Positions 36,000 to 52,044 of a stretch of DNA of 64,000 bases are shown here, piece after piece. The number at the start of each line of letters is the position of its first letter. The stretch's first letter is position 1. The notes beneath the pieces were generated by a model that was given only the letters and a program-made list of their open reading frames with translations, was not told where the DNA came from and made no database searches. The position numbers were made by a program, and so were the translations under genes. Origin of the DNA: Mycolicibacterium anyangense (GTDB taxonomy: Bacteria > Actinomycetota > Actinomycetes > Mycobacteriales > Mycobacteriaceae); the NCBI RefSeq assembly GCF_010731855.1, contig NZ_AP022620.1:868001-932000 (forward strand), given 5' to 3'.

Positions 36000-36940
36000 T
36001 GAACCAGCTGATCGACCCCGACACGGAGCGATTGCTCAGCGATTCCCTTCGGGACATGCTCGCTGGCGGCGGGGACGTGGCTTCTGGGCTGCATGAGATG
36101 GGCTGGAGCGACGTCACCGAGATCGACGCGCCTGCGGCGAGCCGGCTGCTGTTCACCGAGCTCGGCAGGTCAGGTCGTGCCTCGGCGCAGCTGGACAACA
36201 TCTGCACAGCGGCAGCCGGATTGCCGCAGTCCCGCGTCATCCGGGTGGTCCACCCGCTGCGCGATACCTCGACCCCGGGCGTCATCGAGGGAGTGTTGCT
36301 CTCGCCACTGGACTCATGCGAGGTGGTGATCGGTGTCGTTGCCGGAACCCCGGCGACCGCCGTGCGTATCGACACGTCTGCCGCGGTGGCGTCGCTGCGG
36401 CCGGTGGGCGGATTCGATGCCGGTTCGGCCCTGGCGCACATCAGCATTCCGGCGGAGAAGATCAATACTGCTCCGGCAGAGGGGGATTGGGAGCGAGCGG
36501 TGAGTCGGGCCCGAGTGGCCCTGTCCTGGGAGCTGATTGGGAACGCCGAGGCCATGCTGGCGCTGGCGACAGCTCAGATATCCCAGCGCCAGCAGTTCGG
36601 CCGGCCCATTGGCAGCAATCAGTCGCCTCGCCACCGCATGGCGGAGGCTCACACCAAGATCGTCGCGTCGCGGGAACTGGCGGTGGCGGCGCAACAGGCC
36701 GATGACGGCTGGACAGCATTGACGGCAAAGGCCTATGCGGGCATGGCCTGGGACACCGTGATGCGGGGCTGCCTGCAGGTCTGCGGGGCCATCGGCTTGA
36801 CGGCCGAGCACCCACTCGGTGCGCTGGTCCGGCGCGGTACCGTCCTTGAATCGCTTTATGGGAACTGGCGCGACCTGACCGCCCGGATCGGTTCTGATCT
36901 GCTGAGCAGCCGCACGATTCCGATCGGAGTGGCGCTGTGA
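35999..36940 (+). CDS. Acyl-CoA dehydrogenase, non-catalytic/beta-type subunit
   Basis: 313 residues, shortened N-terminal domain. 'QRQQFGRPIGSNQSPRHRMA' and 'LQVCGAIGLTAEHPLGALVRRG' match the beta-type protein 14009-14995. No catalytic glutamate is evident. ATG 35999 is embedded in the stop of the catalytic subunit. The gene order and coupling repeat the arrangement on the opposite strand 20 kb away. It should complete the FAD site of its partner. Confidence 0.87.
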   Translation: MNQLIDPDTERLLSDSLRDMLAGGGDVASGLHEMGWSDVTEIDAPAASRLLFTELGRSGRASAQLDNICTAAAGLPQSRVIRVVHPLRDTSTPGVIEGVLLSPLDSCEVVIGVVAGTPATAVRIDTSAAVASLRPVGGFDAGSALAHISIPAEKINTAPAEGDWERAVSRARVALSWELIGNAEAMLALATAQISQRQQFGRPIGSNQSPRHRMAEAHTKIVASRELAVAAQQADDGWTALTAKAYAGMAWDTVMRGCLQVCGAIGLTAEHPLGALVRRGTVLESLYGNWRDLTARIGSDLLSSRTIPIGVAL

Positions 36941-37740
36941 ACGACCACGCACATGCCCTCGTCGATGATCCTTACCCGGGGGCCTTGCGGATCACGCTGA
37001 ACCGCCCAGAACGGCTCGGCGCCTACACGCCGGCCATGTGTGAGCAGATGTTGGCCGCGCTGAGACAAGCCCGGCTCGACGACGAAGTCCGGGTGGTGAT
37101 CCTCACCGGTAAGGGCCGGGGGTTCTGCACCGGCGGGGATGTATCGCCCGGCGCGGGCTTCGACGAGGCGCTGTCGCACCAGATGGGGCGGGCGCGCGAA
37201 CTGCGCGAGGATGCGCATGCCGTCATCACCGCGATTCACCACCTGGACAAACCGGTGATCTGCGCCGTCAACGGTATCGCCGTCAACGGCGGGCTGGCCT
37301 TCGCGCTGGCCTGCGACCTGCGGGTGGTGGCGCGCAGCGCCAAGCTGGGCGACACCAGTGCCCGGGTGGGTCTGTTGCCGGACGAGGGCGGTGCGTGGTT
37401 GTTCCCCCGAACAATGGGGTACGACAGAGCGTTTCGCATGGTCTCGTTGTCCGAGACCTACAGTGCGGCAGAAGCTTTGGATCTTGGTCTGGCCACCGAG
37501 GTGGTCGACGACGACCAGCTGGAACCGCGCGTCGCCGACCTCGCGCGGCGGTTCGTCCAGGCTGCCCCGCTGGCGTTGCGGGCGGTCAAGTTCATGATGC
37601 GCCGCGGACTGGAATCGACGTTGGACAGTTCGCTCGGCGATGCCCGCCAGGCGGTGCTGTGGGTCGGGCCGAGCTCAGACGCCCAGGAGGGCAAGGCGGC
37701 GTTCCTCGAGCGGCGGGCGCCCCGGTTCCGCGGCCAGTAG
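36937..37740 (+). CDS. Enoyl-CoA hydratase/isomerase family protein
   Basis: 267 residues, GTG start overlapping the dehydrogenase stop by four bases. Oxyanion loops are 'GKGRGFCTGGDVSPG' and 'PVICAVNGIAVNGGLAFA'; 'GLLPDEGGAWLFPRTMGYD' supplies an acidic residue. It ends the operon of beta-lactamase-fold protein, dehydrogenase pair and crotonase, giving a short module: desaturate, then hydrate or isomerise. The next gene has its own promoter with a strong operator-like palindrome. Confidence 0.9.
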   Translation: MNDHAHALVDDPYPGALRITLNRPERLGAYTPAMCEQMLAALRQARLDDEVRVVILTGKGRGFCTGGDVSPGAGFDEALSHQMGRARELREDAHAVITAIHHLDKPVICAVNGIAVNGGLAFALACDLRVVARSAKLGDTSARVGLLPDEGGAWLFPRTMGYDRAFRMVSLSETYSAAEALDLGLATEVVDDDQLEPRVADLARRFVQAAPLALRAVKFMMRRGLESTLDSSLGDARQAVLWVGPSSDAQEGKAAFLERRAPRFRGQ

Positions 37741-37755
37741 GGTTGCCACCGCATT

Positions 37756-37771
37756 ACTATACGCGTATAGT
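37756..37771. promoter_or_regulatory. 16-bp perfect palindrome ACTATACGCGTATAGT, operator candidate
   Basis: A perfect 16-base palindrome lies 35 bases before the amidohydrolase start, next to the AT-rich TTATATTATT. The same sequence with one change occurs at 51192-51207 in another promoter. The operon it controls ends in a GntR gene (40650-41399), suggesting autoregulation. Its size and symmetry fit a dimeric GntR or TetR repressor. Confidence 0.7.
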
Positions 37772-37805
37772 TATATTATTGTTCTAGTTGGAAGGATTGT
37801 CGAAC

Positions 37806-39014
37806 ATGGCCCTTATCGAGAACACGGTCGGCGAACTGCCGTATCGGCTCACCGACTTCGATCAGCACAGCTACGAAGCGGAGGACTGCTTCACCCGCTT
37901 CATGCCCACGGCCAAGCAGGACACCGCTGTCAGGACGGTCATCGCGCCATCGGGACGCAAGATCCTGCTGGCGAACGACCGCATCGTGACCGCGTTGGAG
38001 AACGATCTCAACAACGCCTACGTGCCCGGCTCCCTGGTCGAGATGCTCAAGCAGCGAGCGTCGGGCGACGCCGCCGATGCCGAGCGCTTCTACGAGCCCA
38101 TTCAGATCGAGTACCGCGACCGCGACGCCCGGCTCAAGCAGCTCGACGAACAGCAGATCGAACGGACCATCATGTATCCCGGAGGCTGGGCGCTGATGGC
38201 CGAGCAGTACCTCGACGGTATCGATCCTCTCTACGACAACATCGAGGCGTTCAACCGGTGGATCAACGAAGACTGGGGCTTCAACTACCGCAACCGCATC
38301 TATGCCCCGGCCCTGCTATCCCTGCGCGATCTGGACCGAGCCTGCGCCGAGTTGGACCGGGTCCTGGCCGCCGGTGCGCGATTCATCTATCTGCCTGCCG
38401 GCCCGGCGTACGGCCGCTCGCCCGGCGACCCGTACTTCGACCCGTTCTGGTCCCGCGTCAACGAGGCGCGAGCGGTGGTGTGCTTCCACATCGCCGAGTT
38501 CTACTACCAGAACAACGTCGCCGCCGACTGGGGCTGGGGGTTGACGCCGCCGTTCCAATTCTCGGCATGGCAGTGGCAGAACACCTATGGGGAACGTCCG
38601 ATCACCGACACCCTGTCGGCCCTCATCTTCGACAACCTGTTCGGCCGCTACCCCAACATCAAGGTATTGGTCAGCGAGTTCGGTGCGGAATGGGTGCCAC
38701 ACTTCATCCGGCACATGGACAAGAGCCGCGGCATGGCACGGCTGGGCCGCTGGCTCGGCGGGCCGCTCACCGAACGTCCCAGCACGATCTTCAAGCAGCA
38801 CGTCCGAGTCGTGCCGTACCCCGAAGACGACACCGTCGAGATGATCGAGAAGCTCGGCACCGATCAGACCTTGCTCATGGGCTCGGACTGGCCCCATGCC
38901 GAGGGGCTGCGCGAACCCGCCGACTTCTACGACAAGGTCGCCGGGCTCGATGAGACCAAACGGCGCAATTTCCTCCGGGAGAACGGAATGAAGCTGACCG
39001 ACGGCCTCAACTGA
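37806..39014 (+). CDS. Amidohydrolase-2 family protein, paralogue of 23006-24217
   Basis: 402 residues from ATG 37806; the frame opens 18 bases earlier but that part lies in the leader. Nearly every motif of the 23006-24217 protein recurs: 'TDFDQHSYEAEDCFTRF', 'INEDWGFNYRNRIYAPALLS', 'CFHIAEFYYQ', 'GSDWPHAEGLREP'. The HxH metal motif is DQH in both. It is followed by an acyl-CoA ligase and a GntR gene, again an amidohydrolase-ligase-regulator cassette. A decarboxylase or hydrolase acting on a close analogue of the first substrate is likely. Confidence 0.87.
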   Translation: MALIENTVGELPYRLTDFDQHSYEAEDCFTRFMPTAKQDTAVRTVIAPSGRKILLANDRIVTALENDLNNAYVPGSLVEMLKQRASGDAADAERFYEPIQIEYRDRDARLKQLDEQQIERTIMYPGGWALMAEQYLDGIDPLYDNIEAFNRWINEDWGFNYRNRIYAPALLSLRDLDRACAELDRVLAAGARFIYLPAGPAYGRSPGDPYFDPFWSRVNEARAVVCFHIAEFYYQNNVAADWGWGLTPPFQFSAWQWQNTYGERPITDTLSALIFDNLFGRYPNIKVLVSEFGAEWVPHFIRHMDKSRGMARLGRWLGGPLTERPSTIFKQHVRVVPYPEDDTVEMIEKLGTDQTLLMGSDWPHAEGLREPADFYDKVAGLDETKRRNFLRENGMKLTDGLN

Positions 39015-39023
39015 GCCGCCGAC

Positions 39024-40640
39024 GTGCTCGATTCGGCTGTTCCGAACCTGCTTGTTGACGGGTTCCGGAATTGGGCTGCGTCGGAACCGGATTCGACAGC
39101 TCTCGTCTACTTCGATACGCCGATGTCGGTGGCCGCACTCGATGCGGCCACCGACGCACTGGCTGTTGGCCTGGCGGCCAACGGCTTACGTTCCGGGGAT
39201 CGGGTTGCCCTCTATCTGCAGAACGTCCCGCAGTATGTGATGGGGCTGCTGGGGATCTGGAAGGCGGGCGGAATCGCCGTCGCGATAAACCCGATACTCA
39301 CCCCGGCCGAGGTCGGAAAGCTCCTTGCCGATTGCGCGCCCCGGTTCGTCATCGCGCTCGACGAGCTGTGTTCGGCAGAGTGCATGGGCGTATTCGCGGC
39401 CGCGGGAGTTGACATGGTGCTGTCGACGAGCCCGTTCGACTGGGCGCATGCCGTCGACGAGCGAGTACTTGGCGGCGACCGTCGCGCCATCCCACCCGGT
39501 TCAGTGGATCTCCTGGATTTCCTCCGACGTTGGATGGGCGAAGGTCCGAATCCGGTCCTGATCGATCCGTACGGTGTCGCCGTGATCACCTACACCTCGG
39601 GAACCACCGGAGTGCCCAAGGGCGCACTGAACACGCACCGAAACATCGCCTGTGGCGCAGCGACTTACGTACGTGCATTTGAGCTCGCTGGCCGTGACAC
39701 CATCCTGGGCATCGCTCCGCTGTTCCACGTCACCGGACTCAGCGGGCACATCGGCTGTGCGCTCGCAGCCCGGGCGCCATTGGTGCTGTGCTATCGGTTC
39801 CAGCCCCAGCTGGTTCTCGAGCTGATCCGGCGCCATCAGGTCACCTTCACCGTCGCCGCCCTCACAGTGTTCATCGCCCTGACCGAAGCGATGGCAGAGG
39901 CTGGTTCGGGTGGGACGATGTCCACCCTGACCAAGGTGGCCTCCGGTGGTGCGCCGGTGGCGGCGGCTGTCGTCGAGCGATTCGAAGCGACGTTCGGGCC
40001 CTACATTCGAAACGTCTACGGCATGACCGAAACCACCGCACCGGTTTTCGTGGTTCCGGATCGCACCCGCGCGCCGCAGGAACCGCATACCGGCGCGCTA
40101 TCGGTGGGCACGGCCGTCGAAGGTGTACAGGCCCGCGTCCTTGACGAAGACGGTCAGGACGTGCCAAGCGGTGTGGTAGGGGAGATCGCTGTTCGCGGGC
40201 CGCAGATCGTCCCGGGCTACTGGCGTAACCCGGACGCCACAACAGCCGCCTTTCGCGACGGCTGGCTGCTGACCGGCGATGTGGGATATATCGACGACGA
40301 GGGTTGGTTCTTCCTCGTGGATCGCAAGAAGGACATGATCATCGCCTCGGGTTACAAGGTGTGGCCACGAGAGGTTGAGGACGTGCTGTATGAGCATGAG
40401 GCCGTGCTCGAGGCGGCCGTGGTGGGCCGGCCCGACCCCTACCGGGGGGAGACGGTGGCCGCCTTTGTCTCCCTGCGAGCCGGCAAACATGTCGAACCGG
40501 AGGACCTTGTGGCGTTCTGTCGCCAGCGCCTGGCGGCCTACAAAATCCCGCGCCTCGTGCAGATCGTCGGGAGCGTGCCCAAGACGGCGACCGGAAAAGT
40601 GATGCGCCGGATACTGCGTAATGATCCACCTAGTAGCTAG
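39024..40640 (+). CDS. Acyl-CoA ligase (AMP-dependent synthetase)
   Basis: 538 residues, GTG start 9 bases after the amidohydrolase. 'ITYTSGTTGVPKGALNTHRN' (P-loop), 'NVYGMTETTAPV', 'LLTGDVGYIDDEGWFFLVDRKKDM', 'YKVWPREVEDVLYEH' and the catalytic lysine in 'ATGKVMRRIL' are all standard. It activates an acid to its CoA thioester. Middle gene of the cassette controlled by the 37756 palindrome. Substrate unknown. Confidence 0.93.
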   Translation: MLDSAVPNLLVDGFRNWAASEPDSTALVYFDTPMSVAALDAATDALAVGLAANGLRSGDRVALYLQNVPQYVMGLLGIWKAGGIAVAINPILTPAEVGKLLADCAPRFVIALDELCSAECMGVFAAAGVDMVLSTSPFDWAHAVDERVLGGDRRAIPPGSVDLLDFLRRWMGEGPNPVLIDPYGVAVITYTSGTTGVPKGALNTHRNIACGAATYVRAFELAGRDTILGIAPLFHVTGLSGHIGCALAARAPLVLCYRFQPQLVLELIRRHQVTFTVAALTVFIALTEAMAEAGSGGTMSTLTKVASGGAPVAAAVVERFEATFGPYIRNVYGMTETTAPVFVVPDRTRAPQEPHTGALSVGTAVEGVQARVLDEDGQDVPSGVVGEIAVRGPQIVPGYWRNPDATTAAFRDGWLLTGDVGYIDDEGWFFLVDRKKDMIIASGYKVWPREVEDVLYEHEAVLEAAVVGRPDPYRGETVAAFVSLRAGKHVEPEDLVAFCRQRLAAYKIPRLVQIVGSVPKTATGKVMRRILRNDPPSS

Positions 40641-40649
40641 GCTTACCCG

Positions 40650-41399
40650 ATGCCGGTAACGAGCAAGGAACCGCAGACCACTCGCGCAGCCAGTGTGATC
40701 GCCGACAATCTGCGGCGGCGCATCATCCGGGGTGAGCTGCAAGAGGGTGATGCATTGCCCAGTGAGCAGGATCTGCTCGTCGAGTTCGGCGTGTCGCGTC
40801 CCACGCTGCGGGAAGCCATCCGGGTACTCGAGTCGGAGTCCTTGGTGGTGGTCAAACGCGGATCCCGTGGTGGTATCGAGGTCAGTGTGCCACGCACCGA
40901 AACCGCGGCACACTACGCGGGGCTGGTGCTCGAATACCAGCGAGCCACCCTCGCCGATGTCTTCCAGGCCGCCGCCGCGATAGAGGCACCCTGCGCCGGA
41001 ATGCTGGCACGGTCACACACTGCGGAAGACATCGACCGGCTGCGCGCCGCAGTCGATGCTGAACACGATGCCGCGGACGACCGGTTCGCCGTCCTCGGAC
41101 ACCAGAACGACTTTCATCGACTGCTCATCGAACTGACCGGCAACTCCACGCTGCGAGCGCTCAGTGACGTGCTGCGTCACATCATCGAGGTGGCGACCCA
41201 GCGGTACACGGACATGCGCCCCGAGGAACGGCCGCAATCCCATGAGGCCGGTACCCGGACCCACGCTAAGCTCGTGACGCTGATCGAGGCCGGTGACGCC
41301 GACGCCGCGGAGTCGCTGTGGCGTCGGCACATCTCCGAGACCGGAGCGCGCCTTCGCAAGGCCGGCATCGCGGACTCGGTCCTCGACCTGCTCGAGTGA
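40650..41399 (+). CDS. GntR-family regulator, FCD (FadR-type) subfamily
   Basis: 249 residues. The winged helix has 'LPSEQDLLVEFGVSRPTLREAI' (recognition helix 'SRPTLREAIRVLESES') followed by the wing 'VKRGSRGG'. The C-terminal FCD domain keeps 'FHRLLIELTGN' and 'HAKLVTLIEAGD..AA', the usual metal/ligand-binding histidines. It ends the operon headed by the 37756 palindrome. The regulator at 58865 has an almost identical recognition helix, so the two may share operator sequences. The effector is probably an acid or acyl-CoA of this pathway. Confidence 0.9.
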   Translation: MPVTSKEPQTTRAASVIADNLRRRIIRGELQEGDALPSEQDLLVEFGVSRPTLREAIRVLESESLVVVKRGSRGGIEVSVPRTETAAHYAGLVLEYQRATLADVFQAAAAIEAPCAGMLARSHTAEDIDRLRAAVDAEHDAADDRFAVLGHQNDFHRLLIELTGNSTLRALSDVLRHIIEVATQRYTDMRPEERPQSHEAGTRTHAKLVTLIEAGDADAAESLWRRHISETGARLRKAGIADSVLDLLE

Positions 41400-41426
41400 C
41401 GGCGTCGAGGACCGAGCAGCCGTGGG

Positions 41427-42575
41427 TCAGAAACCCATCCCGCGGCCGACGATGTCGAGCATGATCTCGTTGGTGCCGCCGTAGATGCGCTGAACCCTCG
41501 CGTCGCGCCACAGCCGGGCGATCTCGTATTCATTGATGTAGCCGTAACCGCCGTGCAGCTGCAGGCAGCGATCGATGATGCGCCACTGGGTCTCGGTGCT
41601 CCACCACTTGGCGCCCGCCGCCTCGTCGGCAGTCAGCTCACCGGAGTTGACCGCCATGATGCACTTGTCGATGTACACCTGCATGATGTCCAGCTCGGTG
41701 CGCATCTGCGCCAATGCGTGCCGATTGACCTGAAAGGTTCCGATGGCTTGACCGAAAGCCTTGCGGTCGCCGGCGTAAGCGGTCGTCAGGTCTACGGCGC
41801 GCCGAGCCGATGCCGCGGCGTGGATGCCGATGCCCAACCGCTCGGCCGGCAGATTGCGCATCAAGTGGTAGAAGCCGCGGTTCTCCTCGCCGAGGAGGTT
41901 TCTCGCCGGAACGCGAACGTCCTCGAACACCAATTCCGCGGTGTCGGCGGAATGCTGACCGATCTTGTCGAGCTTGCGGCCACGGCTGAAACCAGGCATC
42001 CCGGTCTCGACGACGATCAGGCTGATGCCCTTGTGCGGCTTATCCGCGTTCGGGTCGGTGCGGCAGGCCACCACCACGAGGTCCGCCAACAGGCCATTGG
42101 AGATGAACGTCTTGGCGCCGTTGACGATGTAGTCGTCACCGTCGCGCCGGGCTGAGGTCTTGATATTGGCCAAGTCGGAGCCGGCACCGGGTTCCGACAT
42201 CGCGATCGCGGTGATCAGTTCGCCGGAAACATAGCCGGGCAGCCAGCGTTCCTTCTGCTCGTCGGTGGTGAGCTCGGCGAAATAACCTGCCAGGATGTCG
42301 TTCTGCACGCCGAGGCCCAGTCCCACCGCGCCGGTGAGCCAGAACTCTTCATTGACGATCGCGTTGAGCCGGAAATCCTTGATGCCCGCGCCGCCGTATT
42401 CCTCGGGCATCTCCCACCCGATCAGGCCCAGCTTGCCCGCTTCCAGCCACGGTTCGCGGTCGGTGTACCCGCGCTTCTCCCACTCCTCGGCGTGGGGGAC
42501 GCAGACGGTTTCGAAGAATGAACGGGCAGTGGCGCGAAACTCGTCGTGCTCGGGTTCGAAGATATCTCTGCGCAT
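41427..42575 (-). CDS. Acyl-CoA dehydrogenase (FadE type), paralogue of 12843-13985
   Basis: 382 residues from ATG 42575; the ten upstream codons lie in the leader. 'EPEHDEFRATARSFF', 'LGLGVQNDILAGYF', 'AMSEPGAGSDLANIKT', 'RGRKLDKIGQHSADTAEL' and 'LPAERLGIG' run parallel to 12843-13985 through the whole length. The Glu in 'LPAERL' is the likely base. An AGAAAGAGAAG ribosome site precedes it. It is separated by 118 bases, with its own inverted repeat, from the two dehydrogenases upstream. Confidence 0.92.
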   Translation of the reverse strand: MRRDIFEPEHDEFRATARSFFETVCVPHAEEWEKRGYTDREPWLEAGKLGLIGWEMPEEYGGAGIKDFRLNAIVNEEFWLTGAVGLGLGVQNDILAGYFAELTTDEQKERWLPGYVSGELITAIAMSEPGAGSDLANIKTSARRDGDDYIVNGAKTFISNGLLADLVVVACRTDPNADKPHKGISLIVVETGMPGFSRGRKLDKIGQHSADTAELVFEDVRVPARNLLGEENRGFYHLMRNLPAERLGIGIHAAASARRAVDLTTAYAGDRKAFGQAIGTFQVNRHALAQMRTELDIMQVYIDKCIMAVNSGELTADEAAGAKWWSTETQWRIIDRCLQLHGGYGYINEYEIARLWRDARVQRIYGGTNEIMLDIVGRGMGF

Positions 42576-42597
42576 CGAAGCTTCTCTTTCTGATGTG

Positions 42598-42615
42598 CTG
42601 TTCACCTGCGAACAG
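42598..42615. promoter_or_regulatory. CTGTTC-ACCTGC-GAACAG inverted repeat upstream of the 42575 dehydrogenase
   Basis: Perfect 6-base arms with a six-base spacer lie 23 bases before the start codon; AT-rich ATAATGATCAAACTATATAT follows, and could hold a minus-strand -10. A plausible operator placed between promoter and start. Confidence 0.35.
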
Positions 42616-42693
42616 AATAATGATCAAACTATATATGGCGAGAAGTCTGTGTGGCGACCGCCCCGCACTGGGACGGGTCCGACTCGGCCGGGT

Positions 42694-43767
42694 TCAGGAA
42701 CTGCTGCTGTACGTGCTGACGAATTCCCATGCACTGTAACCGGATTCGAGGACCGATTCGCCAAGTCGACGTTGCCACTCCCGGATGCCGCCGAACTCCG
42801 AGCGCCATGCCAAAGCTCGGCCGGTGAAATGCCGCAATCGGTGGTCGAGGGTGAACCCGATGGCTCCGTGCGCCTGATGAGTGTTGCGCGATACGACGGT
42901 GGCCGCCCGGCTCGCCTCGATCTTGGCGACAGCGACGGCGAAACGTGCCTGCTCGGAGGCGAACCCGTGTGCCTGTGCCATGTCCACCGCGAAATCGCTT
43001 GCCGACCGTGCCAGGCATAACGCGCTGGCGCTAGTGGCGACCAGGTTCTGGACGGCCTGGAACTTGGCCAGTGGTCGTCCGAACTGCACTCGTTCGCTGA
43101 CGTGGCGGACGGTCATCTCCACTGCGCGGTCCAGCGCACCGCACGTCTGCAGCGCCCGGGCCAAGGCCCCGCGGTCCCGGAATTCGCCAGCCAGATCAGT
43201 ATCGACCGCGGCGAAAGTATCGGCAGCCACGGTCATGTCGACCGTCACGTGGTCGCACGGCTGAGCCGCGATGTCATCGTTCGGTGAAATCGTCAGCGCA
43301 GTGGATGGGACCGCTGCCACAAATCCCGGGCCCGCGATCACGACGGTGTCGGCGTGGCGCGCCCAGGGCACCGAGTTCACCGTGCCTTGCAGTCGACCGT
43401 CGCGGGTGTGCAGTTCGCCGAATGCTGCCGTCATGACACCGGTGCGGACCGATAATCCGGCGGTTCGCAGCAACCAGGACGCCAGCAGATCGTTCTCGGC
43501 GATCGGGGCCGGCGCAGCGTGATAACCGATTTGCTCCAAGACGACCGCGAGTTCCACCAGCCCGGCACCGCTTCCACCCTGCTCCTCGGGCGTGGACAGC
43601 CGCGTCAGGCCCGCCTCGTCGAGATGGGACCACAGTCTCGGGTTGAACGCGACGTCGCGTTGCTGGAGATCCAGCACGGGCTCGGTGGCAGCACCGCAGA
43701 TATCGCCGGCAAGACTGCGTAATTCGGCGAGTTCGTCAGAGCTCGCGGGGGCACTGGTCATGGTCAT
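42694..43767 (-). CDS. Acyl-CoA dehydrogenase, partner subunit
   Basis: 357 residues. 'RVQFGRPLAKFQAVQNLVA' and 'HGAIGFTLDHRLRHFTGRALAW' identify the C-terminal dehydrogenase domain; the usual 'TSEIQR' tail and base glutamate are missing, as in beta-type partners. ATG 43767 overlaps the stop of 43764-44933 (ATGA). The two form one of five paired dehydrogenases in the window. Confidence 0.85.
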   Translation of the reverse strand: MTMTSAPASSDELAELRSLAGDICGAATEPVLDLQQRDVAFNPRLWSHLDEAGLTRLSTPEEQGGSGAGLVELAVVLEQIGYHAAPAPIAENDLLASWLLRTAGLSVRTGVMTAAFGELHTRDGRLQGTVNSVPWARHADTVVIAGPGFVAAVPSTALTISPNDDIAAQPCDHVTVDMTVAADTFAAVDTDLAGEFRDRGALARALQTCGALDRAVEMTVRHVSERVQFGRPLAKFQAVQNLVATSASALCLARSASDFAVDMAQAHGFASEQARFAVAVAKIEASRAATVVSRNTHQAHGAIGFTLDHRLRHFTGRALAWRSEFGGIREWQRRLGESVLESGYSAWEFVSTYSSSS

Positions 43768-44933
43768 CGCAATCCCAATCCGCGGGCCACCACGCCGCTC
43801 AGAATCTCGTTCGTACCACCGCGCAAGGTGAAACCCGGTGCATGCAGGATCGCCTCACCGAGGAGGCGGGCGAAGGAATCTGTGGCGTCGACCGACGGTA
43901 TCGCCGAGCTCAGGGCCGCCGCGGTGTCGACAACTGCCGATTCATAGCGCGTGCCCAGATCTTTGACCACGGCTGCGGCTACGTCGACCGATTCGTTGGC
44001 TGACAATGCTGTCGCCAGCGATGCCGACAGTTGGCGCAGCGCCGCCAGTTGGGACACCAGATCTCCGATGTCGCCGGCGGCGCCCGCCCGGTCTTCGCCG
44101 TCGTCGTCGGCGCGCGTGGTGGTGACCAGACTGTCGAGCAGGGGTTGGGTCGACAGGATGCGTTCTGGCCCGCTGCGTTCGAATCCCAGCTCGGAGGTGA
44201 CCTGTCGCCAGCCGCCACCGATATCACCCAGCACCATGTCGTCGGGGACGAACACCTTGTCCAGTACCACTTCGTTGAAGTGATGGCCGCCGGTCAACAA
44301 CCGGATGGGACGAATCTCCAGGCCGGGGCTGTCCAGTGGCACCACGAACTGGCTGAGCCCCTCGTGGCGCTTGCCGTCCTCCACCGGTGCCGTACGGGTC
44401 AGCACGAAGAAGGCGTGGGCATGGTGGGCGCCCGAGGTCCAGACCTTCGTGCCGGACAGCTGCCAGCCGCCCTCGACTCGCACACCACGCGTCTGCACGC
44501 TGGCCAGATCAGACCCTGACTCGGGCTCACTCATCCCGATGGCGAAGTAGCATTCACCGGCGGCAATGGCGGGAAGGTAGCGCTGGCGCAGGTGCTCGTT
44601 GCCATGTTTGAGCAGCGACGGCGCAGCCTGCCGGTCGGCTACCCAGTGCGCGGCGATCGGCGCGCCGGCGGCCAGCAGTTCCTCGATCACCACGAAACGT
44701 TCGATATGGCTGGCACCGCGCCCGCCGTACTGCTCGGGAATGGTCATCCCCAGGAAGCCGTGCTGGGCGAGTCGGCGGCTGAATGCCGGGTCCCAGGACG
44801 AGATCCAGGAATCGACCCGGGGTACCCAGCCGAAAGCGGATCGGTCTTCGGTCAGGAACTCCCGCACTGTGGCGCGTAGTCCTCCGGTCGTGGAGGGAAG
44901 CGGCCGGTATGGCGGCACCAGGGCCACGGACAA
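43764..44933 (-). CDS. Acyl-CoA dehydrogenase, catalytic subunit
   Basis: 389 residues. 'TIPEQYGGRGAS', 'GMSEPESGSDLASVQTRGV', Glu in 'ELGFERSGPE' and the C-terminal 'RGGTNEILSGVVARGLG' are present. TTG 44933 is chosen because GAGGAGAT lies six bases upstream; GTG 44927 is possible. It is first of three minus-strand dehydrogenase genes and divergent from a thiolase. Confidence 0.88.
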   Translation of the reverse strand: MSVALVPPYRPLPSTTGGLRATVREFLTEDRSAFGWVPRVDSWISSWDPAFSRRLAQHGFLGMTIPEQYGGRGASHIERFVVIEELLAAGAPIAAHWVADRQAAPSLLKHGNEHLRQRYLPAIAAGECYFAIGMSEPESGSDLASVQTRGVRVEGGWQLSGTKVWTSGAHHAHAFFVLTRTAPVEDGKRHEGLSQFVVPLDSPGLEIRPIRLLTGGHHFNEVVLDKVFVPDDMVLGDIGGGWRQVTSELGFERSGPERILSTQPLLDSLVTTTRADDDGEDRAGAAGDIGDLVSQLAALRQLSASLATALSANESVDVAAAVVKDLGTRYESAVVDTAAALSSAIPSVDATDSFARLLGEAILHAPGFTLRGGTNEILSGVVARGLGLR

Positions 44934-45021
44934 GGGTTGATCTCCTCGGATCGATGACGGCCCCGGGATGGGTGCCGTACAGCAATAGCGCTAATATATT
45001 CAACTGATTCGTCTCAATCAA

Positions 45022-45033
45022 CGAGGATCCTCG
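45022..45033. promoter_or_regulatory. CGAGGATCCTCG palindrome in the dehydrogenase/thiolase divergent promoter
   Basis: A perfect 12-base palindrome lies 25 bases before the thiolase start, in the 125-base divergent region that also has an AT-rich patch (AATATATT, 44993-45000). It is placed to block or activate the thiolase promoter. Confidence 0.35.
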
Positions 45034-45058
45034 ATACGGATGAAAAGAGAGTGTGAAC

Positions 45059-46231
45059 ATGCGTGACGCCGTTATCACCGCTGCAGTCCGGACTCCAATC
45101 GGCAAGCGCAACGGGGGACTGGCTGCGGTACATGCCGCCGACCTGTCCGCCATGGTGCTCAATGAGCTGATCGCCCGTGCCGGAATTGCTCCCGAGGTCG
45201 TCGAAGACGTGCACTGGGGCAACGTCATCAGCTTGGGTCAGCAGTCGGGCAACGTCGGCCGGATGGCCGTCCTGGCTGCCGGTTGGCCCGAGTCGATTCC
45301 CGGGTTCACGATCGACCGGCAATGTGGGTCCTCGCAGCAGGCCATCTCCACAGCCGCCGCCACCGTGGTGTCCGGCCAGGCCGACGTGATCATCGCCGGC
45401 GGCGTCGAAATGATGTCGGCGGTGCCCATGGGTGCGGCCGTCGTTCCGGGTACGGGTGAGATGGGCGGTGGCGCGGTGACCCGCTACGCCGACCGACTGG
45501 CCGATACCCCGGGATTCCATGGTCGGTTCAACCAGGGCGCAGGTGCCGAACTGATCGCCGACGATCATGGCTTCACCCGTACTCAACTCGACGAGTATTC
45601 GGCGCTCTCGCATGAACGTGCCGCCGCAGCACAGGATTCCGGTGCGTTCGCCGACGAGATCATGGCGGTGACAACCGAGGGCGGTGTCATCGACGCAGAC
45701 GAGGGTATCCGTCGCGGGACCACGGTGGAAAAGCTCGCCGGACTGAAGGCGCCGTTCCTGGAGGGCGGCAAGATCACCGCGGGTAACGCGTCGCAGATCT
45801 CTGACGGCGCCGCCGCATTGCTGATCACCACCAGCGAACGGGCCGCAGAACTAGGTATGACGCCGTTGGCGCGGATCCATACCGCGGTGGTCTCCGGCGA
45901 TGACCCGGTGCGGATGCTGACCGGGCCCATCCCGGCGACGCACCTGGCGCTCAAGCGTTCCGGGCTCGCCATCGACGACATCGGCGCCTTCGAGATCAAC
46001 GAAGCCTTCGCCCCGGTTCCGATGGCCTGGCAGGTCGCCACCGGCGCTCCGATCGAGAAGCTGAATCCGCTCGGCGGCGCGATCGCGCTCGGCCACCCAC
46101 TGGGATGTTCCGGGGCGCGGCTGGCCACCACCCTGGTCCACCACATGCGGCACAACGGGATCCGTTACGGCCTGCAGTCGATGTGTGAAGGTGGCGGGAC
46201 CGCGAACGCCACGATCTACGAGCTCGTCTGA
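45059..46231 (+). CDS. Acetyl-CoA acyltransferase (thiolase)
   Basis: 390 residues. Cys89 ('DRQCGSSQQA'), His346 ('GHPLGCSGARL') and Cys376 ('SMCEGGGTAN') form a complete thiolase active site. It cleaves 3-ketoacyl-CoA to acetyl- or propionyl-CoA. ATG 45059 is used; GTG codons at 45051 and 45053 are closer to the AAAAGAGAG site but lack family support. It stands alone on the plus strand, between the dehydrogenase trio and a convergent ligase. Confidence 0.93.
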   Translation: MRDAVITAAVRTPIGKRNGGLAAVHAADLSAMVLNELIARAGIAPEVVEDVHWGNVISLGQQSGNVGRMAVLAAGWPESIPGFTIDRQCGSSQQAISTAAATVVSGQADVIIAGGVEMMSAVPMGAAVVPGTGEMGGGAVTRYADRLADTPGFHGRFNQGAGAELIADDHGFTRTQLDEYSALSHERAAAAQDSGAFADEIMAVTTEGGVIDADEGIRRGTTVEKLAGLKAPFLEGGKITAGNASQISDGAAALLITTSERAAELGMTPLARIHTAVVSGDDPVRMLTGPIPATHLALKRSGLAIDDIGAFEINEAFAPVPMAWQVATGAPIEKLNPLGGAIALGHPLGCSGARLATTLVHHMRHNGIRYGLQSMCEGGGTANATIYELV

Positions 46232-46238
46232 CCGGCCG

Positions 46239-47681
46239 CTAGGTGGGGGATGTCGGGCGGCGTAGCTGAGCTCTGCGCAGCTTGCCGACCGATGTCCGGG
46301 GTAGCTCGTCGACGAAGACATATCGGGTAGGCCGCTTGTAGGTGGCCAGTCTGTGGCGCAGCCAGTCATCGAGCTCCTCGCGCCCAGCCGAGCTAACGAC
46401 GTAGGCCACCGGGGTCTCGCCGGTGCGCTCGTCGGGTTCGCCGATCACCGCGGCCTCGGTGACCTGGGGGTGCGCCAGCAACGCGTTCTCCACCTCGGTG
46501 GGTGCCACCTGGAACCCGGATACTTTCAGGACGTCCTTGAGGCGGTCGAAGATCCACACCCGGCCGTCGTCGTCGAGGTGACCGATATCCCCCGTCGCGA
46601 ACCAGCCATCGTCGAACGCCTCCGAATCGGTCCCGCTGTACCCCGCAGCGACGCTGGGACCGCGGACCAGAAGTTCACCCGAAGGGGAGACCCGGATCTC
46701 GGTGCCCGCGGTCGGGTAGCCGGGGGAGTCCAGTCGCCAGCGCGATGGGTCCTTGATCGGGTTGAACGCCACCATCATGGCCTCAGTCATGCCGTATGAG
46801 CACAGGAATGGGACGCCCGTTCGTTCGGTGAGATCGGCGGCGAGGTCGGCCGGCACCGCACTGCCGCCCCACATGAAGAAGCGCAGTGACGAGAAGTCTT
46901 GGCGGCGAAGGCCGTCCCGGTTCGCCAGTCGGTAGGCGACGGCACCGGCTATCGGCCAGACCGTCACACCGGCGGTCCGGATGTGGTCGAGGGCTTCGTC
47001 GAGGTCGAACCGCCGAAACAGCGTGAGTTCGGCACCCACGCTGATGGCCGCGGCGGCCATGGTCGCCCCGAAGATGTGGCACAGCGGTAGTGCGAGCGCG
47101 AGCCGGTCGCGTTCGGTCAGTCCGGTGTGGTGTCGGAGCTGCTCGACTCCACCGCACAGGCTCGCCGTGGTGTGCACCACGCCCTTGGGAAGTCCGGTGG
47201 TCCCCGATGAGAACGGAATATACTGCGGTGCAGTCGGTTCGGTGCGGGTGGCCGGCACGCGGGGTGCGTCAGCGTCGAGCAGTGTGGCGATATCGATGGC
47301 GATCGACACACCGTCCGGAACCGACCGGCTCGCATCGAACACCGCTGCGGTGGCCGCCGAAGCGGTGATCCCGTGGTCGAGTTCCACCGGAGTCCAGTAC
47401 GGATTCGGAGTGACGAAGACGGCGCCGATATGAGCCAGGGCGAACTGCGCGATCAGATACTCGGGACAGTTCTCGGCCAGGATCAACACCCGGGTACCCG
47501 GGCACACTCCGCATTCGGTCAGGCGGCCGGCGGCCGACTGGACCGCACGGTGAAGTTCGTAGTACGTCCACGCCGTCGACTCGAACCGCAAGCCCACCCG
47601 GCCCGGCCAGCGGGCGGCGGCAGCGGACAGATAGCCCGCGTAGCCGCCCGCGGCCGGTGCGTCAGAGCCGCTTTTCACCAT
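46239..47681 (-). CDS. Acyl-CoA ligase (4-coumarate-CoA-ligase-like)
   Basis: 480 residues. 'IPFSSGTTGLPKGVVHTTAS', 'CSYGMTEAMMV', 'GWFATGDIGHLDDDGRVWIFDRLKD' and the catalytic lysine in 'TSVGKLRRAQL' are present; the P-loop form is closest to 4-coumarate:CoA-ligase-type enzymes. Start ATG 47681 lies inside the preceding gene (20-base overlap). It is last in a minus operon with an acyl-CoA dehydrogenase, a class III CoA-transferase and an unknown protein. Confidence 0.9.
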   Translation of the reverse strand: MVKSGSDAPAAGGYAGYLSAAAARWPGRVGLRFESTAWTYYELHRAVQSAAGRLTECGVCPGTRVLILAENCPEYLIAQFALAHIGAVFVTPNPYWTPVELDHGITASAATAAVFDASRSVPDGVSIAIDIATLLDADAPRVPATRTEPTAPQYIPFSSGTTGLPKGVVHTTASLCGGVEQLRHHTGLTERDRLALALPLCHIFGATMAAAAISVGAELTLFRRFDLDEALDHIRTAGVTVWPIAGAVAYRLANRDGLRRQDFSSLRFFMWGGSAVPADLAADLTERTGVPFLCSYGMTEAMMVAFNPIKDPSRWRLDSPGYPTAGTEIRVSPSGELLVRGPSVAAGYSGTDSEAFDDGWFATGDIGHLDDDGRVWIFDRLKDVLKVSGFQVAPTEVENALLAHPQVTEAAVIGEPDERTGETPVAYVVSSAGREELDDWLRHRLATYKRPTRYVFVDELPRTSVGKLRRAQLRRPTSPT

Positions 47682-48690
47682 TGGCCGGAACCGACTCGCC
47701 CCACGCCATCCAGACGTCCGGTGTGCGGGTGTCGGACACCCGATGCATGTGGCCCTCCTGCTGCGGATTGGGCATCGGACCGAGCTTCATGTGGCCCTGC
47801 GGGTCTGGATCACATCGCCACCCCACTCCGTCGATCTCGTAGTTGATGCCATCGTGCCAGTAGCCGTCGGCGGCCCGCTCGATCACCGCATCCATGGTGT
47901 GCGCAGAGGTCACGGTGCCGTCGCTGTGAGCGACCACGCCAACGTGAAAACCGCGCTGCCCGAACAGGAAGTGCCCAACCTCGGCAGTGCCGTCCGCCCA
48001 GTGATTCGCCCAGGAGTACCAAGTGGTGTACGCGGCGTCGTGCAGTGGATCCTTGTCGCGGTAGAGTCGGCCGCCGGGGGGCATCCAGGCTTCTTCCCAG
48101 AACAGGAAGCCCCGTGCGGGTCGGCCCAGGATCTCAGCCTCGACCAACCACGTTTGAGTGATGTACAGCAAGCTGGAGTCCCGGCCGGGGACGTACCACT
48201 GCAGGGGCGGCACCACCAGTGTGCCCGTTGCCTCGAGGGTGCCGGCTTCCCGATAGCGGAAGTTGTCGGCATCCAGGATCAGCTCCATCGGCTCGCCTGC
48301 GGCACCCGGAATCGAGGCAATGGTGACGGTGTTGTCTCCCGTCAGCGTCGTAGTGAGTGCGGCGCTGTCGACCGCGTAGCGCGCCTGCTTACGCATCGTC
48401 AGGCCGTCGCCTTCGCCGCTGCCGAGCAGAATATGCTTGCCGCCCAACGACTGTCGGCCATCTGTAGTGGCTTCCGGCGGGGTGGCAGCGATGCGCCGCA
48501 TGGTGCTGTACAGGGTGCCCTCGTCGTCGCGCAACGTTCCCCAGATGTAGCCGCCCTCGCGCTGCAGACCCAGGATCGGGTCGTCGGAGACGAAGTCGCG
48601 TGCGTCGAAGGTGCGCCTCGATGCCAGCGCTTGACAGTCGAATGTGCCGGTGCGGTTGGGCGAGGCGATCAGGGTATCCGTGGTCGTCAT
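47662..48690 (-). CDS. Protein of unknown function, beta-rich
   Basis: 342 residues from ATG 48690, which has AAAGGAAGAG directly upstream; the frame open to 49035 is not used. It has no motif I can assign. It is rich in Trp, Tyr and Gly and looks like a beta-structure protein: 'REGGYIWGTLRDDEGTLYS', 'GFLFWEEAWMPPGGRLY', 'WYSWANHWADGTAEVGH', 'QRGFHVGVVAHSDG'. A lipocalin-like, AttH/CrtC-like hydratase fold is one possibility, with low confidence. Between a CoA-transferase and a ligase, it may bind or modify the pathway substrate. Confidence 0.75.
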   Translation of the reverse strand: MTTTDTLIASPNRTGTFDCQALASRRTFDARDFVSDDPILGLQREGGYIWGTLRDDEGTLYSTMRRIAATPPEATTDGRQSLGGKHILLGSGEGDGLTMRKQARYAVDSAALTTTLTGDNTVTIASIPGAAGEPMELILDADNFRYREAGTLEATGTLVVPPLQWYVPGRDSSLLYITQTWLVEAEILGRPARGFLFWEEAWMPPGGRLYRDKDPLHDAAYTTWYSWANHWADGTAEVGHFLFGQRGFHVGVVAHSDGTVTSAHTMDAVIERAADGYWHDGINYEIDGVGWRCDPDPQGHMKLGPMPNPQQEGHMHRVSDTRTPDVWMAWGESVPANGEKRL

Positions 48691-48746
48691 CTCTTCCTTT
48701 CGGTCATCGTCGGGCGCCGGTCGTTGTTGGGCGTTGCCTGGGTCGG

Positions 48747-49967
48747 TCAGAGCACTCCGCGCTCGCGCAAGTCCCGGATCTCGGTATCGGACTTGTGCAG
48801 CAGTTCGGCCAGGACTTCGTCGGTGTTCTCGCCGAGCCTGGGTGGGCGCCGATAGTCCTGGATGGGTGTCTCGGAATAGCGAATCGGGTTGGCCAGCAGG
48901 TCCATCGCCCGGCCGTCGAGATCGTCGACACGCTTCCGCATGTCCCGGTGACGGATCTGCGGGTTGGCGAACACGCCGTCCATGGTGTTCACCGGGCTGA
49001 CCGGTACGTCGGCCTCTTCGAGTCGGCGCACCCATTCCGCGGCGGTGTATTCGGCGAAGATCGCATCCAGTGTCTCCAGAACCAGGTCCCGATTGGCGAT
49101 GCGTGCCGAGACGGTGGCGAAGCGGGGGTCATCGGCCAATTCCGGCCTGCCTACCGCCTTGGCGAGCCCGGACCACTGGCCGGGAGTCGAAGCCACCACG
49201 AAGATGTCGGCATCGCGGCACCGGAACGCCTGGGAAGGAATACCACCGAAACCGCCGTTGCCGCGGCGTGGGGCCGGCTGACCCGAGACCAGGTAATTCT
49301 GCGCGTAGTGCGACAACGCTGCCAGCCCGCAATCCAGGAGCGCAAGGTCGATGTGCTGCCCGCCACCGCCGCCGTCGCGGTGATGAAGTGCGGCCAGGAT
49401 CGCCGAGCTGGCGTAGAGACCGGTGAGCACGTCGACCATCGAGACTCCGACCTTCATCGGGCCCGCGCCAGGTTCCCCGTCGGGGATCCCTGAGACACTC
49501 ATCATCCCCGACATCGCCTGGAAGACACCGTCATAGCCAGCCCGCTGCGCGTAGGGCCCGTCCTGGCCGAAGCCGGTGACCGAGCAATAGATCAGGTTCG
49601 GGTTGCCGGTGTGCAGGCTCGGGTAGTCCAGACCGTACTTTGCCAGCACACCGGTGCGGAAGTTCTCGATGAGCACATCGGACTGCATCGCGAGTTCGGC
49701 GATCAGGGCCGCTCCGTCCGGCTGCGAATGATCCACCGTGATGGACCGCTTGTTGCGGTTCGCACTGAGGTAGAAGCCGGACTGGTTGTCAGTGGCGGCA
49801 CCGAAGAACGGCGGACCGTACTGCCGGGAGTCATCGCCGGCGCCGGGGCGTTCCACCTTGATCACATCGGCGCCCAAGTCCCCGAGCAACTGTGCGGTCA
49901 ACGGCGCGGCCAGGATCCGGCTCAGGTCGAGCACCCGCACGCCGGCCAGTGGCCCATGTCCGGTCAT
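48747..49967 (-). CDS. Family III CoA-transferase (CaiB/BaiF type)
   Basis: 406 residues. 'GVRVLDLSRILAAPLTAQLLGDLGADVIKVE' (family opening, quoted here in part as 'LDLSRILAAP' and 'GADVIKVE'), 'SANRNKRSITVD' and the catalytic Asp in 'GYDGVFQAMSGMMSVSG' are present. It swaps CoA between a product thioester and a substrate acid without ATP. It overlaps the acyl-CoA dehydrogenase stop (ATGA) and precedes the unknown protein by 56 bases. With a ligase in the same operon the substrate can be activated in two ways. Confidence 0.92.
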   Translation of the reverse strand: MTGHGPLAGVRVLDLSRILAAPLTAQLLGDLGADVIKVERPGAGDDSRQYGPPFFGAATDNQSGFYLSANRNKRSITVDHSQPDGAALIAELAMQSDVLIENFRTGVLAKYGLDYPSLHTGNPNLIYCSVTGFGQDGPYAQRAGYDGVFQAMSGMMSVSGIPDGEPGAGPMKVGVSMVDVLTGLYASSAILAALHHRDGGGGGQHIDLALLDCGLAALSHYAQNYLVSGQPAPRRGNGGFGGIPSQAFRCRDADIFVVASTPGQWSGLAKAVGRPELADDPRFATVSARIANRDLVLETLDAIFAEYTAAEWVRRLEEADVPVSPVNTMDGVFANPQIRHRDMRKRVDDLDGRAMDLLANPIRYSETPIQDYRRPPRLGENTDEVLAELLHKSDTEIRDLRERGVL

Positions 49968-51196
49968 GCGCCGACCTTCGGTTCGCGGGGAAGGCCCAGC
50001 ACGCGCTCGCTGATGATGTTTCTCTGGACCTCGCTGGTGCCGGCGTAGATCGTCTCCGCGCGCGCCCGGATGAAGGATCGCCGGATCGCTTCATGATCCT
50101 GACCGTCGGGCTCGGGGCCGGACCCCCATTCCGTTCCCAGCAGGGCGTCGGGACCGAGCACATCCATGGCCAGTTCGGTGAACTGCTGATGCCAGCGCGA
50201 CCAGTAGTACTTGCCGATCGATGCCTCCGGACCGAATCGGCCGTCACGCAGCGCCGCGGACAACGTCCGCATGTTGTTGTGCGCCATGATCTGCAGTCCG
50301 ATGTAGCTGTCGACCAGCCGGTGGCGCAGCACCGGATCGTCGGCCGCACCGCGCCGCGCCGCGACCGCCCGCAGCTGATCCATCTCGCGGACGAACGAGA
50401 ACTGGTAGTTGAGCACCGAGGTGGCACGTTCGTGACCAAGGGTGGTCATCGCCGCGTTCCACCCATCGCCCTCGGCGCCGAGAACGTTGTCGACCGAGGT
50501 GTGCGCGTCGTCGAAGAACACCTCATTGAACCCGCTGTCGCCGAGCATGGTGCGAATGGGAACCACCGTCACACCTGGTTGATCGAGCGGGATCAGCATG
50601 TAGGACAGCCCGGCGTGGCGGGACGTGCCCGGCTGGGTGCGGACGATGGCGAAGATCCATGAGGCGTGTTGCGCGAACGTCGTCCAGATCTTCTGGCCGT
50701 TGACCACCCACCGGTCGCCGTCCCGTTCGGCGCGGGTATTGATCGCGGCCAGGTCTGAACCCGCGCCAGGCTCGGAGTAGCCCTGGCACCACACCACCTC
50801 ACCTCGCGCCATCGGTGGCAGTAGGCGCTGCTTCTGAGCCTCGGTGCCATGCGTCAGGGCTGTCGGCGCCATCAACGTCTCGCCGTGGAACGCCGCTCGC
50901 GGTGGCGTCTGCGCGCGGGCGCACTCCATCGCGAAGATGATCTCCTGAGTCATCGTCGCGCCCCGGCCGCCGTACTCGCGAGGCCACGACAAGCCTAGCC
51001 AATTACCCGCGCCCAGCTCGTGTTCCCAGGCGCGTCGGAGCTCCCAATTGTCGTCGTCATCGGGGCCACCGCGGTCCGCGGTGCCCACGAAATCACCTTT
51101 CAGATGTTCTCCCAGCCACGTGCGCACCTCGTCACGGAAGTCGCGATCGGCTCGGCTCAGCGCAATTTGACCAACCTCGTCCACGTCAGACACCAT
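49964..51196 (-). CDS. Acyl-CoA dehydrogenase (FadE type)
   Basis: 410 residues from ATG 51196. 'SWPREYGGRGATMTQE', 'YSEPGAGSDLAAINTRAE', Glu in 'TLGHERATSV' and 'YAGTSEVQRNIISERVLGLPRE' are present. It resembles the catalytic subunit 55492-56688. The 51192 palindrome covers the start codon itself: its CAT is the ATG on this strand. With the -10 in the same place the mRNA is probably leaderless, so a bound repressor would block initiation. A longer start at 51211 would sit upstream of the likely promoter and is rejected. Confidence 0.9.
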   Translation of the reverse strand: MVSDVDEVGQIALSRADRDFRDEVRTWLGEHLKGDFVGTADRGGPDDDDNWELRRAWEHELGAGNWLGLSWPREYGGRGATMTQEIIFAMECARAQTPPRAAFHGETLMAPTALTHGTEAQKQRLLPPMARGEVVWCQGYSEPGAGSDLAAINTRAERDGDRWVVNGQKIWTTFAQHASWIFAIVRTQPGTSRHAGLSYMLIPLDQPGVTVVPIRTMLGDSGFNEVFFDDAHTSVDNVLGAEGDGWNAAMTTLGHERATSVLNYQFSFVREMDQLRAVAARRGAADDPVLRHRLVDSYIGLQIMAHNNMRTLSAALRDGRFGPEASIGKYYWSRWHQQFTELAMDVLGPDALLGTEWGSGPEPDGQDHEAIRRSFIRARAETIYAGTSEVQRNIISERVLGLPREPKVGA

Positions 51197-51207
51197 ACGC
51201 GTATAGT
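51192..51207. promoter_or_regulatory. ACCATACGCGTATAGT, second copy of the 16-bp palindrome
   Basis: 15 of 16 bases match 37756-37771. It sits in the 56-base divergent region between the minus operon (49964) and the plus operon (51253) and includes the minus-strand start codon. The single mismatch is the base that creates that ATG. Confidence 0.65.
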
Positions 51208-51212
51208 GCAAT

Positions 51213-51252: not shown

Positions 51253-52044
51253 GTGGACGACCTGCTGTGGTCGGTCGAGGACGGCGTGGGGACCATCACC
51301 CTCAACCGCCCGGAGGCCCGCAACGCCTTCACGTTCGACATGATCAGGCGATGGGCGGACCTGCTGCGCCAGGCCAAGAACGATGACCAGGTGCGCGTGG
51401 TCGTCCTCACCGGGGCTGGCGACAAGGCGTTCTGCTCGGGAGTGGATCTGTCCTCGATCTCCAATGCCAACCCCGACCTGACGCCGCTGCAGCGCAAGAG
51501 TCAACTGCACGACGAGGTACACCAGGTTGCACACGCCGTGGCCGACCTCGACAAGCCGTTGATCGCCGCCATCAACGGAGTGGCGGTCGGCGCCGGACTC
51601 GACATGGCGCTGATGTGCGATATGCGCATCATGTCGACAGAGGCCCGGGTGTCGGAGGGCTACGTCAGGGTCGGTCTGACACCCGGTGATGGCGGGGCGT
51701 ACTACCTGCCGCGGCTGGTCGGCACCGCCAAGGCACTCGAGTTGCTGCTCACCGGTGACTTCATCGACGCGCCCGAGGCCCTGCGGATCGGGCTGGTCAA
51801 TAGGCTGGCCGAGCCGGCCGAGTTGCAGGCCAAGGCCGCCGAGTTCGCCAGGGCCATCGCGGCACACCCGCCGGTGTCGGTGCGGATGATCAAGCGCGCC
51901 ACCTACCAGTCCGCCAACACCGATCTGCGCACGGCGCTCGACCTGATCTCGTCGCACTTCGCCGTGGTCGCCGCCACCGAGGATGCCGCCGAAGCGCTGG
52001 CGGCGATGAAGGAGAAGAGGGAGCCCCGCTATGCCGGCCGCTGA
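51253..52044 (+). CDS. Enoyl-CoA hydratase/isomerase family protein
   Basis: 263 residues, GTG start with AGGAGA eight bases upstream. Oxyanion loops are 'GAGDKAFCSGVDLSS' and 'LIAAINGVAVGAGLDMA'; 'GLTPGDGGAYYLPRLVG' carries Asp rather than Glu in the catalytic helix. It is the first of eight plus-strand genes ending at 58785 and overlaps the small amidohydrolase by 14 bases. It may be a hydratase or a ring- or chain-cleaving crotonase. Confidence 0.9.
   Translation: MDDLLWSVEDGVGTITLNRPEARNAFTFDMIRRWADLLRQAKNDDQVRVVVLTGAGDKAFCSGVDLSSISNANPDLTPLQRKSQLHDEVHQVAHAVADLDKPLIAAINGVAVGAGLDMALMCDMRIMSTEARVSEGYVRVGLTPGDGGAYYLPRLVGTAKALELLLTGDFIDAPEALRIGLVNRLAEPAELQAKAAEFARAIAAHPPVSVRMIKRATYQSANTDLRTALDLISSHFAVVAATEDAAEALAAMKEKREPRYAGR

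Follow-up and report, generated by a model that had tools for sequence, protein, structure and literature searches.

Introduction

Catabolic islands are commonly controlled by repressors of the TetR family that act on palindromic sites, and KstR is the TetR-family repressor of cholesterol catabolism in mycobacteria, with a regulon based on coenzyme A (CoA). The present work concerns a 16-bp palindrome that recurs in a 64,000-nucleotide stretch of the Mycolicibacterium anyangense genome (contig NZ_AP022620.1, positions 868,001 to 932,000; this whole stretch is referred to as the window and all coordinates are given within it, unless stated otherwise), together with a TetR-family regulator of 201 amino acids encoded at 33019-33624 (minus strand) which is proposed to bind it at three places. 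The palindrome is read here as the operator of this TetR, which would cover -10 boxes supplied by the palindrome arms until a pathway intermediate releases it, and we assign this reading a probability of roughly 0.85.

The window TetR shares with KstR its family and a CoA-based catabolic type of regulon, but its score with the KstR model (NF033703) was 17.5, far below the cut-off of 280. MftR of Mycolicibacterium smegmatis is likewise a mycobacterial TetR-family repressor with a palindromic operator and is described as being released by acyl-CoA (PMC8728441); the window TetR matched the MftR2 model (NF038211) weakly (67.7, cut-off 285), and the MftR operator, T-N2-GGCA-N5-TGCC-N2-A in the same source, differs from the window palindrome by letter comparison. 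For the promoter design, the nearest parallel found was AcrR at PacrA/acrR of Escherichia coli, where a repressor of the same family likewise acts on a bidirectional promoter with one -10 region for the two directions (PMC12825309). AcrR acts there at a single promoter beside its own gene, whereas the palindrome in the window recurs at several operons of a catabolic island, and the -10 boxes seem to be formed by the palindrome arms themselves.

Two FCD-GntR regulators are also encoded in the window, namely GntR1 (40650-41399, plus strand) and GntR2 (58865-59611, plus strand), neither of which is proposed here as a binder. Paired paralogs with shared targets are known, as in the case of GntR1 and GntR2 of Corynebacterium glutamicum (PMC2230225), which are of the FCD-GntR type as well. 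The window palindrome differs from FCD-GntR systems in that it does not have the layout of GT before AC (PMC4494728) and does not follow the GntR genes across genomes. Literature searches for the written forms of the motif and for MftR2 did not bring up any paper on a bacterial regulator that uses this operator, as judged by title and start of abstract.

A rare palindrome in a catabolic island

The perfect 16-bp palindrome ACTATACGCGTATAGT (operator A, 37756-37771, 16/16 positions) lies before an amidohydrolase gene, and ACCATACGCGTATAGT (operator B, 51192-51207), which agrees with operator A at 15/16 positions, separates an acyl-CoA dehydrogenase gene from a divergently transcribed enoyl-CoA hydratase gene. 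When the window was scanned with up to three mismatches, A and B were the sole matches, while shuffled windows (n=100) gave a mean of 0.03 matches and two matches in 0/100 cases. The same two sites were the sole matches within two mismatches in the complete 5,696,751-bp genome; at three mismatches one extra match was obtained (genome position 3518193, three mismatches), and a reversed control pattern also gave one.

Operator C, ATCGTACATGTACAGT (32995-33010), is located between the TetR gene and a second enoyl-CoA hydratase gene and matches operator A at 10/16 positions, which by mismatch count alone is indistinguishable from chance (approximately 2.2 four-mismatch sites expected per 64 kb, 15 shuffles). 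A scoring matrix was trained on 50 sites from ten genomes, with the window and its sister genome G318 left out. TAC and GTA are invariant in this matrix, these six positions carrying one base each in all 50 training sites, a conservation which is partly by construction as the sites were picked by similarity to the consensus (two mismatches or fewer). The matrix scores in the window were 28.4 for operator A, 23.6 for operator B and 13.6 for operator C, the next best being 2.4. The score of operator C exceeded the maxima of 20/20 shuffles (1.9 to 10.2), and this degenerate copy is probably genuine on the basis of its sequence. The operator consensus across relatives is ACTATACRYGTATAGT, with the core TAC-RY-GTA.

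A chance origin of the palindromes was rejected on the window shuffles, the genome counts and the comparison of the matrix scores with shuffles. The motif is rare and confined to the island, and represents a real local regulon. A preliminary description of this DNA, made from the sequence alone, had reported the perfect palindrome, its 15/16 copy, the degenerate relative at 32995-33010 and their gene context, and had proposed a local regulon; the sites and their context were confirmed, and the regulon is borne out by the rarity of the motif in the 5.70-Mb genome and by its location in the island. Checked genome-wide and in relatives, the motif was found to be the opposite of frequent and unrelated to promoters.

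Co-occurrence of the palindrome and the TetR gene

The comparison was made across 396 genomes of the genus (own genome counted), a second batch of 198 having been added to the first 198, with a motif of one mismatch or fewer and a TetR ortholog at E<=1e-45 as the co-occurrence criteria. In a first search of the first 198 genomes (own genome included, up to two mismatches) the own genome and five others were matched, and in four of these five the motif adjoins homologs of window genes; the match in G114 was dropped as chance, no homolog being found beside the site.

Searched for separately, the motif and the TetR were found in the identical six of the first 198 genomes (hypergeometric P =1.3e-11). 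The added 198 genomes alone gave six genomes with the motif, six with the TetR and five with both (P =1.5e-8), and the full set of 396 gave 12, 12 and 11, respectively (P =1.8e-19). There were 34 motif matches in the 12 TetR-bearing genomes compared to one in the other 384, while the reversed control gave six single matches in the 396 genomes, none of them in a TetR-bearing genome. All of the 34 matches except one shared a contig with the TetR gene, at a distance of no more than 30 kb (33/34); the exception came from G111, a fragmented assembly, and was located on a different contig.

Sites ahead of target genes in relatives

Within stretches fetched from 12 genomes, 54 sites (two mismatches or fewer) were identified, 27 of which are between divergent genes. 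Sequence covered by homologs of window genes makes up 62% of these stretches, though 49/54 sites lie outside it, and four of the five sites that do overlap it are operator B itself. Window proteins were the only tblastn queries used to locate genes in the relatives, which makes genes without a window homolog invisible in this comparison, and L074-L077 were not counted as independent of G158, G067, G413 and G314.

The amidohydrolase gene (37806-39014, plus strand; Amidohydro_2, 54.8 bits) is the first gene after operator A and is followed by an acyl-CoA ligase gene (39024-40640, plus strand). Ahead of the amidohydrolase a site scoring at least 22.1 was present in 12/12 TetR-bearing genomes, compared to a best score of -12.9 in the TetR-less genome G145. 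Operator B separates the acyl-CoA dehydrogenase gene (49964-51196, minus strand), its leftward target, from the enoyl-CoA hydratase gene that is first in the rightward operon (51253-52044, plus strand), and G318, G067 and G158 have it at the same position, the T-to-C change included. The target of operator C is the enoyl-CoA hydratase gene at 32163-32948 (minus strand; start ATG chosen by eye), and an equivalent site before the same gene scored at least 16.6 in nine relatives and 6.9 in G247. The upstream score of -11.8 recorded for the window copy of this hydratase came from a scan from the wrong start (TTG at 33014), and operator C does lie there. Comparison between sequences thus shows that the sites exist, that they are conserved and placed in promoters, and that they are linked to the TetR gene.

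The closest relative found was G318 (C1, L127), the TetR of which is 90% identical to that of the window. No close ortholog of the 32163-32948 hydratase and no site were found beside the TetR gene in G318. This genome also has no homologs of the window genes at 34830-37740 between its homolog of the 33709 gene and its amidohydrolase gene, and operator A is kept there as GGTATACATGTATAGT. A paralog of the amidohydrolase gene within the window (23006-24217, plus strand) has no palindrome upstream.

The TetR regulator

The TetR gene was unmentioned in the preliminary description. It forms the tail end of a 602-codon open frame (33019-34827, minus strand) opposite the 33709 gene, and this longer frame could hide it from automatic annotation. 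The TetR_N domain scored 39.8 bits (cut-off 24) inside the longer frame, and PF00440 was assigned to the 201-amino acid protein itself. Its recognition helix, VSAMALYHHV, is identical in 12/12 TetR-bearing genomes, and homologs are also named from Gordonia and Rhodococcus. At sequence level, the palindromic sites in promoters of genes linked to it are what is expected for a member of the TetR family. Proteins of this family bind DNA as dimers, are released by a ligand and often, though not always, have an operator in their own promoter. In the promoter of the TetR gene itself a site scoring at least 12.7 was present in 7/12 genomes, while scores of 3.2 to 8.6 were obtained in three.

Two other regulators of the window were considered and rejected, as a second TetR (25823-26428) has a homolog only in G318 (90%) together with one 25% match in G340, and a MarR (61954-62436) has a homolog only in G247 (35%). 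This comparison covered stretches of 10 to 100 kb from the 11 TetR-bearing relatives and used best non-overlapping matches only.

The FCD-GntR regulators

It had previously been proposed that the palindrome is the binding site of both GntRs, which would compete there while answering different effectors. We now consider this very unlikely, and the regulator was probably misassigned: the motif tracks the TetR gene instead, and one genome carries both GntRs without any palindrome. Nothing in the comparison speaks positively for competition between the two at these sites. Both GntR genes are situated within the island, close to operators A and B, and the nearest named relative of both proteins is NanR, whose operator, (GGTATA)3, contains the GTATA unit of the palindrome arms (PMC8012715). 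GntR1 orthologs (at least 48% identity) were also found in 7/12 TetR-bearing genomes (G000, G318, G413, G247, G158, G067 and G116), but in the remaining five (G055, G111, G314, G340 and G358) the best GntR1 match was 41-47% identical, no better than other paralogs, and these genomes carry between two and seven palindromes each (3, 2, 7, 6 and 5, respectively). The cut between the two groups is a narrow one, 48% in G116 against 47% in G340, and rests on the presence of GntR2 (58%) beside the GntR1 of G116. GntR2 was searched for genome-wide in the first 198 genomes, where G055 and G111 had no match above 39-40%, and in fetched stretches of 40-60 kb only in the case of G314, G340 and G358.

The converse situation is seen in G145. 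This genome carries both GntRs (60% each, adjacent to one another) along with the amidohydrolase (84-86%), the hydratase (64%) and, at 75% and 80%, the 49964/51253 gene pair, but no TetR was found in it at E<=1e-20 and no palindrome was found over 40 kb, where the best matrix score was -0.9.

Sites of the FadR subfamily of GntR regulators are described as TKGT/ACMA boxes, with GT before AC and 2-3 nt apart (PMC4494728). The palindrome reads TATAC-NN-GTATA, with AC before GT, and does not show this layout, to which NanR-type repeats are an exception within the subfamily. With respect to the proteins, GntR1 and GntR2 are 39% identical, and the preliminary description had pointed to their almost identical recognition helices. 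This similarity was confirmed, but it is not specific to the pair, as a third paralog at 4.32 Mb (G000:C1:4317825-4318535, outside the window) has nearly the same helix and is closer to GntR1 (46% identical) than GntR2 is. The difference between HAKLV in one GntR and YSKLV in the other is as had been stated.

Promoter architecture

As described for Mycobacterium tuberculosis, the mycobacterial -10 box has the consensus TANNNT and its centre lies 7-12 bp ahead of the transcription start (PMC3898074). Read outward, both palindrome arms give TATAGT. A candidate -10 box on the plus strand is formed by the right arm of operator A (37766-37771), and that of operator B (51202-51207) is a candidate for the rightward operon beginning at 51253; G145 has TATCGT at the latter place. 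The outermost arm base, which completes TANNNT, was T in 58/81 arms facing a gene start compared to 8/25 of those directed at a gene end (Fisher P =7e-4), where arms with a homolog within 150 bp were counted, a few poor sites such as GCTATAACTATATAGC were included and related genomes were treated as independent. Such a bias in the start-facing arms is expected if the outermost base serves RNA polymerase and not the TetR.

At operator B, the rightward TATAGT overlaps a candidate leftward -10 box, CACTAT (51203-51208, minus strand), which is 6 nt before an ATG start codon lying within the operator (51194-51196, minus strand). CACTAT is without the first T of TANNNT, and TACTAT, found in its place in G067 and G158, fits the consensus. 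By eye, the hexamer 6 nt before the start codon was CACTAT in the window and G318, TACTAT in G067 and G158, and TACGAT in G145. The start codon occupies the same column in all five genomes that have the gene pair, being ATG in the window, G318, G067 and G158 and GTG in G145 (column conservation by eye), and is followed in all five by four codons and then GAC. An alternative leftward start four codons later would use TATGGT (51192-51197, minus strand), 7 nt before GTG; this arrangement also fits G318 (GTG) and G158 (ATG), while G067 and G145, with CTC and CTG, respectively, do not have it. At operator B the divergent starts are predicted to be approximately 18 bp apart, and 18 bp is reported as the commonest spacing of divergent starts at bidirectional promoters (PMC12825309). 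Overlap of the operators with promoters and divergent control at 51192, both suggested in the preliminary description, were supported, and its placing of a start codon inside the operator, as a candidate for leaderless translation, agrees with the occurrence of RTG in the same column in 5/5 genomes.

These features could also be produced by a symmetric bidirectional promoter with TATAGT both ways and no dedicated binding protein, the arms matching the mycobacterial -10 consensus and half of the 54 sites standing between divergent genes. Such a promoter would not need the central TAC-RY-GTA, which is the invariant part of the motif, and the presence of the palindrome tracks one regulator gene. 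Furthermore, G145 retains TATAGT before its amidohydrolase although the palindrome is gone. We consider a promoter of this kind without a dedicated protein very unlikely, and somewhat less likely than binding by the GntRs.

Proposed mechanism

In the reading preferred here, a TetR dimer would bind operators A (37756), B (51192) and C (32995) and cover the -10 boxes in their arms, so that RNA polymerase is kept out and the operons are shut. An intermediate of the catabolic pathway would then release the TetR; due to the ligases, dehydrogenases and hydratases encoded around it, this effector is perhaps a CoA thioester. At operator B the two divergent -10 hexamers would overlap, and the mRNA of the leftward gene, the start codon of which is placed inside the operator, would be leaderless. 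Binding, repression, the effector and the transcription starts are what we infer from the sequences.

A number of observations weigh against this reading. The p-values for co-occurrence overstate its strength, as the genomes are related and clusters are inherited whole, and the co-occurrence could simply mirror the fact that the cluster is passed on in one piece. In G247 the TetR is present, but all of the sites have two mismatches; they stand before its TetR gene, its amidohydrolase gene and its homologs of the 34830 and 33709 genes. The end-base test was set up post hoc, with the sites already known. In the window (score -10.6) and in G318 (-4.3) there is no good site in the promoter of the TetR gene itself; the window has ACCATACGCCCAGCGC there (33668-33683), a possible operator remnant preserved in its left half only, and a half-site of the same type is present in G318 too. 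Due to this lack of a good site, self-control of the TetR may be absent in the window, as judged from its sequence.

Finally, a one-mismatch palindrome is present in G389 (C212:1409-1424) in a homologous cluster, and no TetR was found in this genome at E<=1e-20 (98%-complete assembly, 640 contigs). This last case, along with the fact that the comparison covered regulators of the window only, would suit another regulator that is encoded elsewhere and inherited together with the cluster. Against such a regulator, no window regulator other than the TetR recurs in the stretches fetched from every one of the 12 genomes, and sites flank the TetR gene in many of them; we regard this alternative as the least probable of the explanations considered, with only a slight chance of being correct.

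Should the TetR reading hold, a plausible but probably wrong regulator is replaced by one which is open to a single binding assay, and a regulator, an operator consensus and a list of targets are obtained for a CoA-based catabolic island which is as yet uncharacterised and the TetR of which was found in 12/396 genomes. The interest of the case is moderate and lies in the overlap of operator and -10 box, an unusually compact arrangement; it offers a comparative example in which the two share bases and the outermost base seems to report promoter direction. A further suggestion, which we put forward tentatively and at somewhat less than even odds, is that one 16-bp unit is at once the TetR operator and a two-way core promoter, spread over the island as a portable module, with repressor, polymerase and ribosome sharing bases at operator B. 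If true, one direction could be lost by a change of the outermost base alone, with the repressor site left intact.

Further observations on the GntR genes

A second A/T-rich element (approximately ATATCGTYWACYGATAT) recurs at the promoter of operator B and between the GntR genes of G145, G067 and G158, and could be a GntR operator. Elements of this type scored 19.1, 18.4, 15.9 and 13.6 at 16237, 9360, 42618 and 44994 in the window, respectively, with shuffle maxima of 9.3 to 18.0, an overlap too great for these sites to be claimed.

GntR1 also has a candidate leaderless promoter of its own, with TAGGCT (40638-40643, plus strand) as the candidate -10 box 6 nt before its ATG. By eye, the arrangement TANNNT-N6-ATG was seen in the window, G318, G145, G067 and G158, and was not seen in G116, the sixth upstream sequence inspected. 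The two GntR genes are adjacent in G145, G067, G158 and G116, while they are 17.5 kb apart in the window and are also apart in G318, which suggests that their separation reflects rearrangement.

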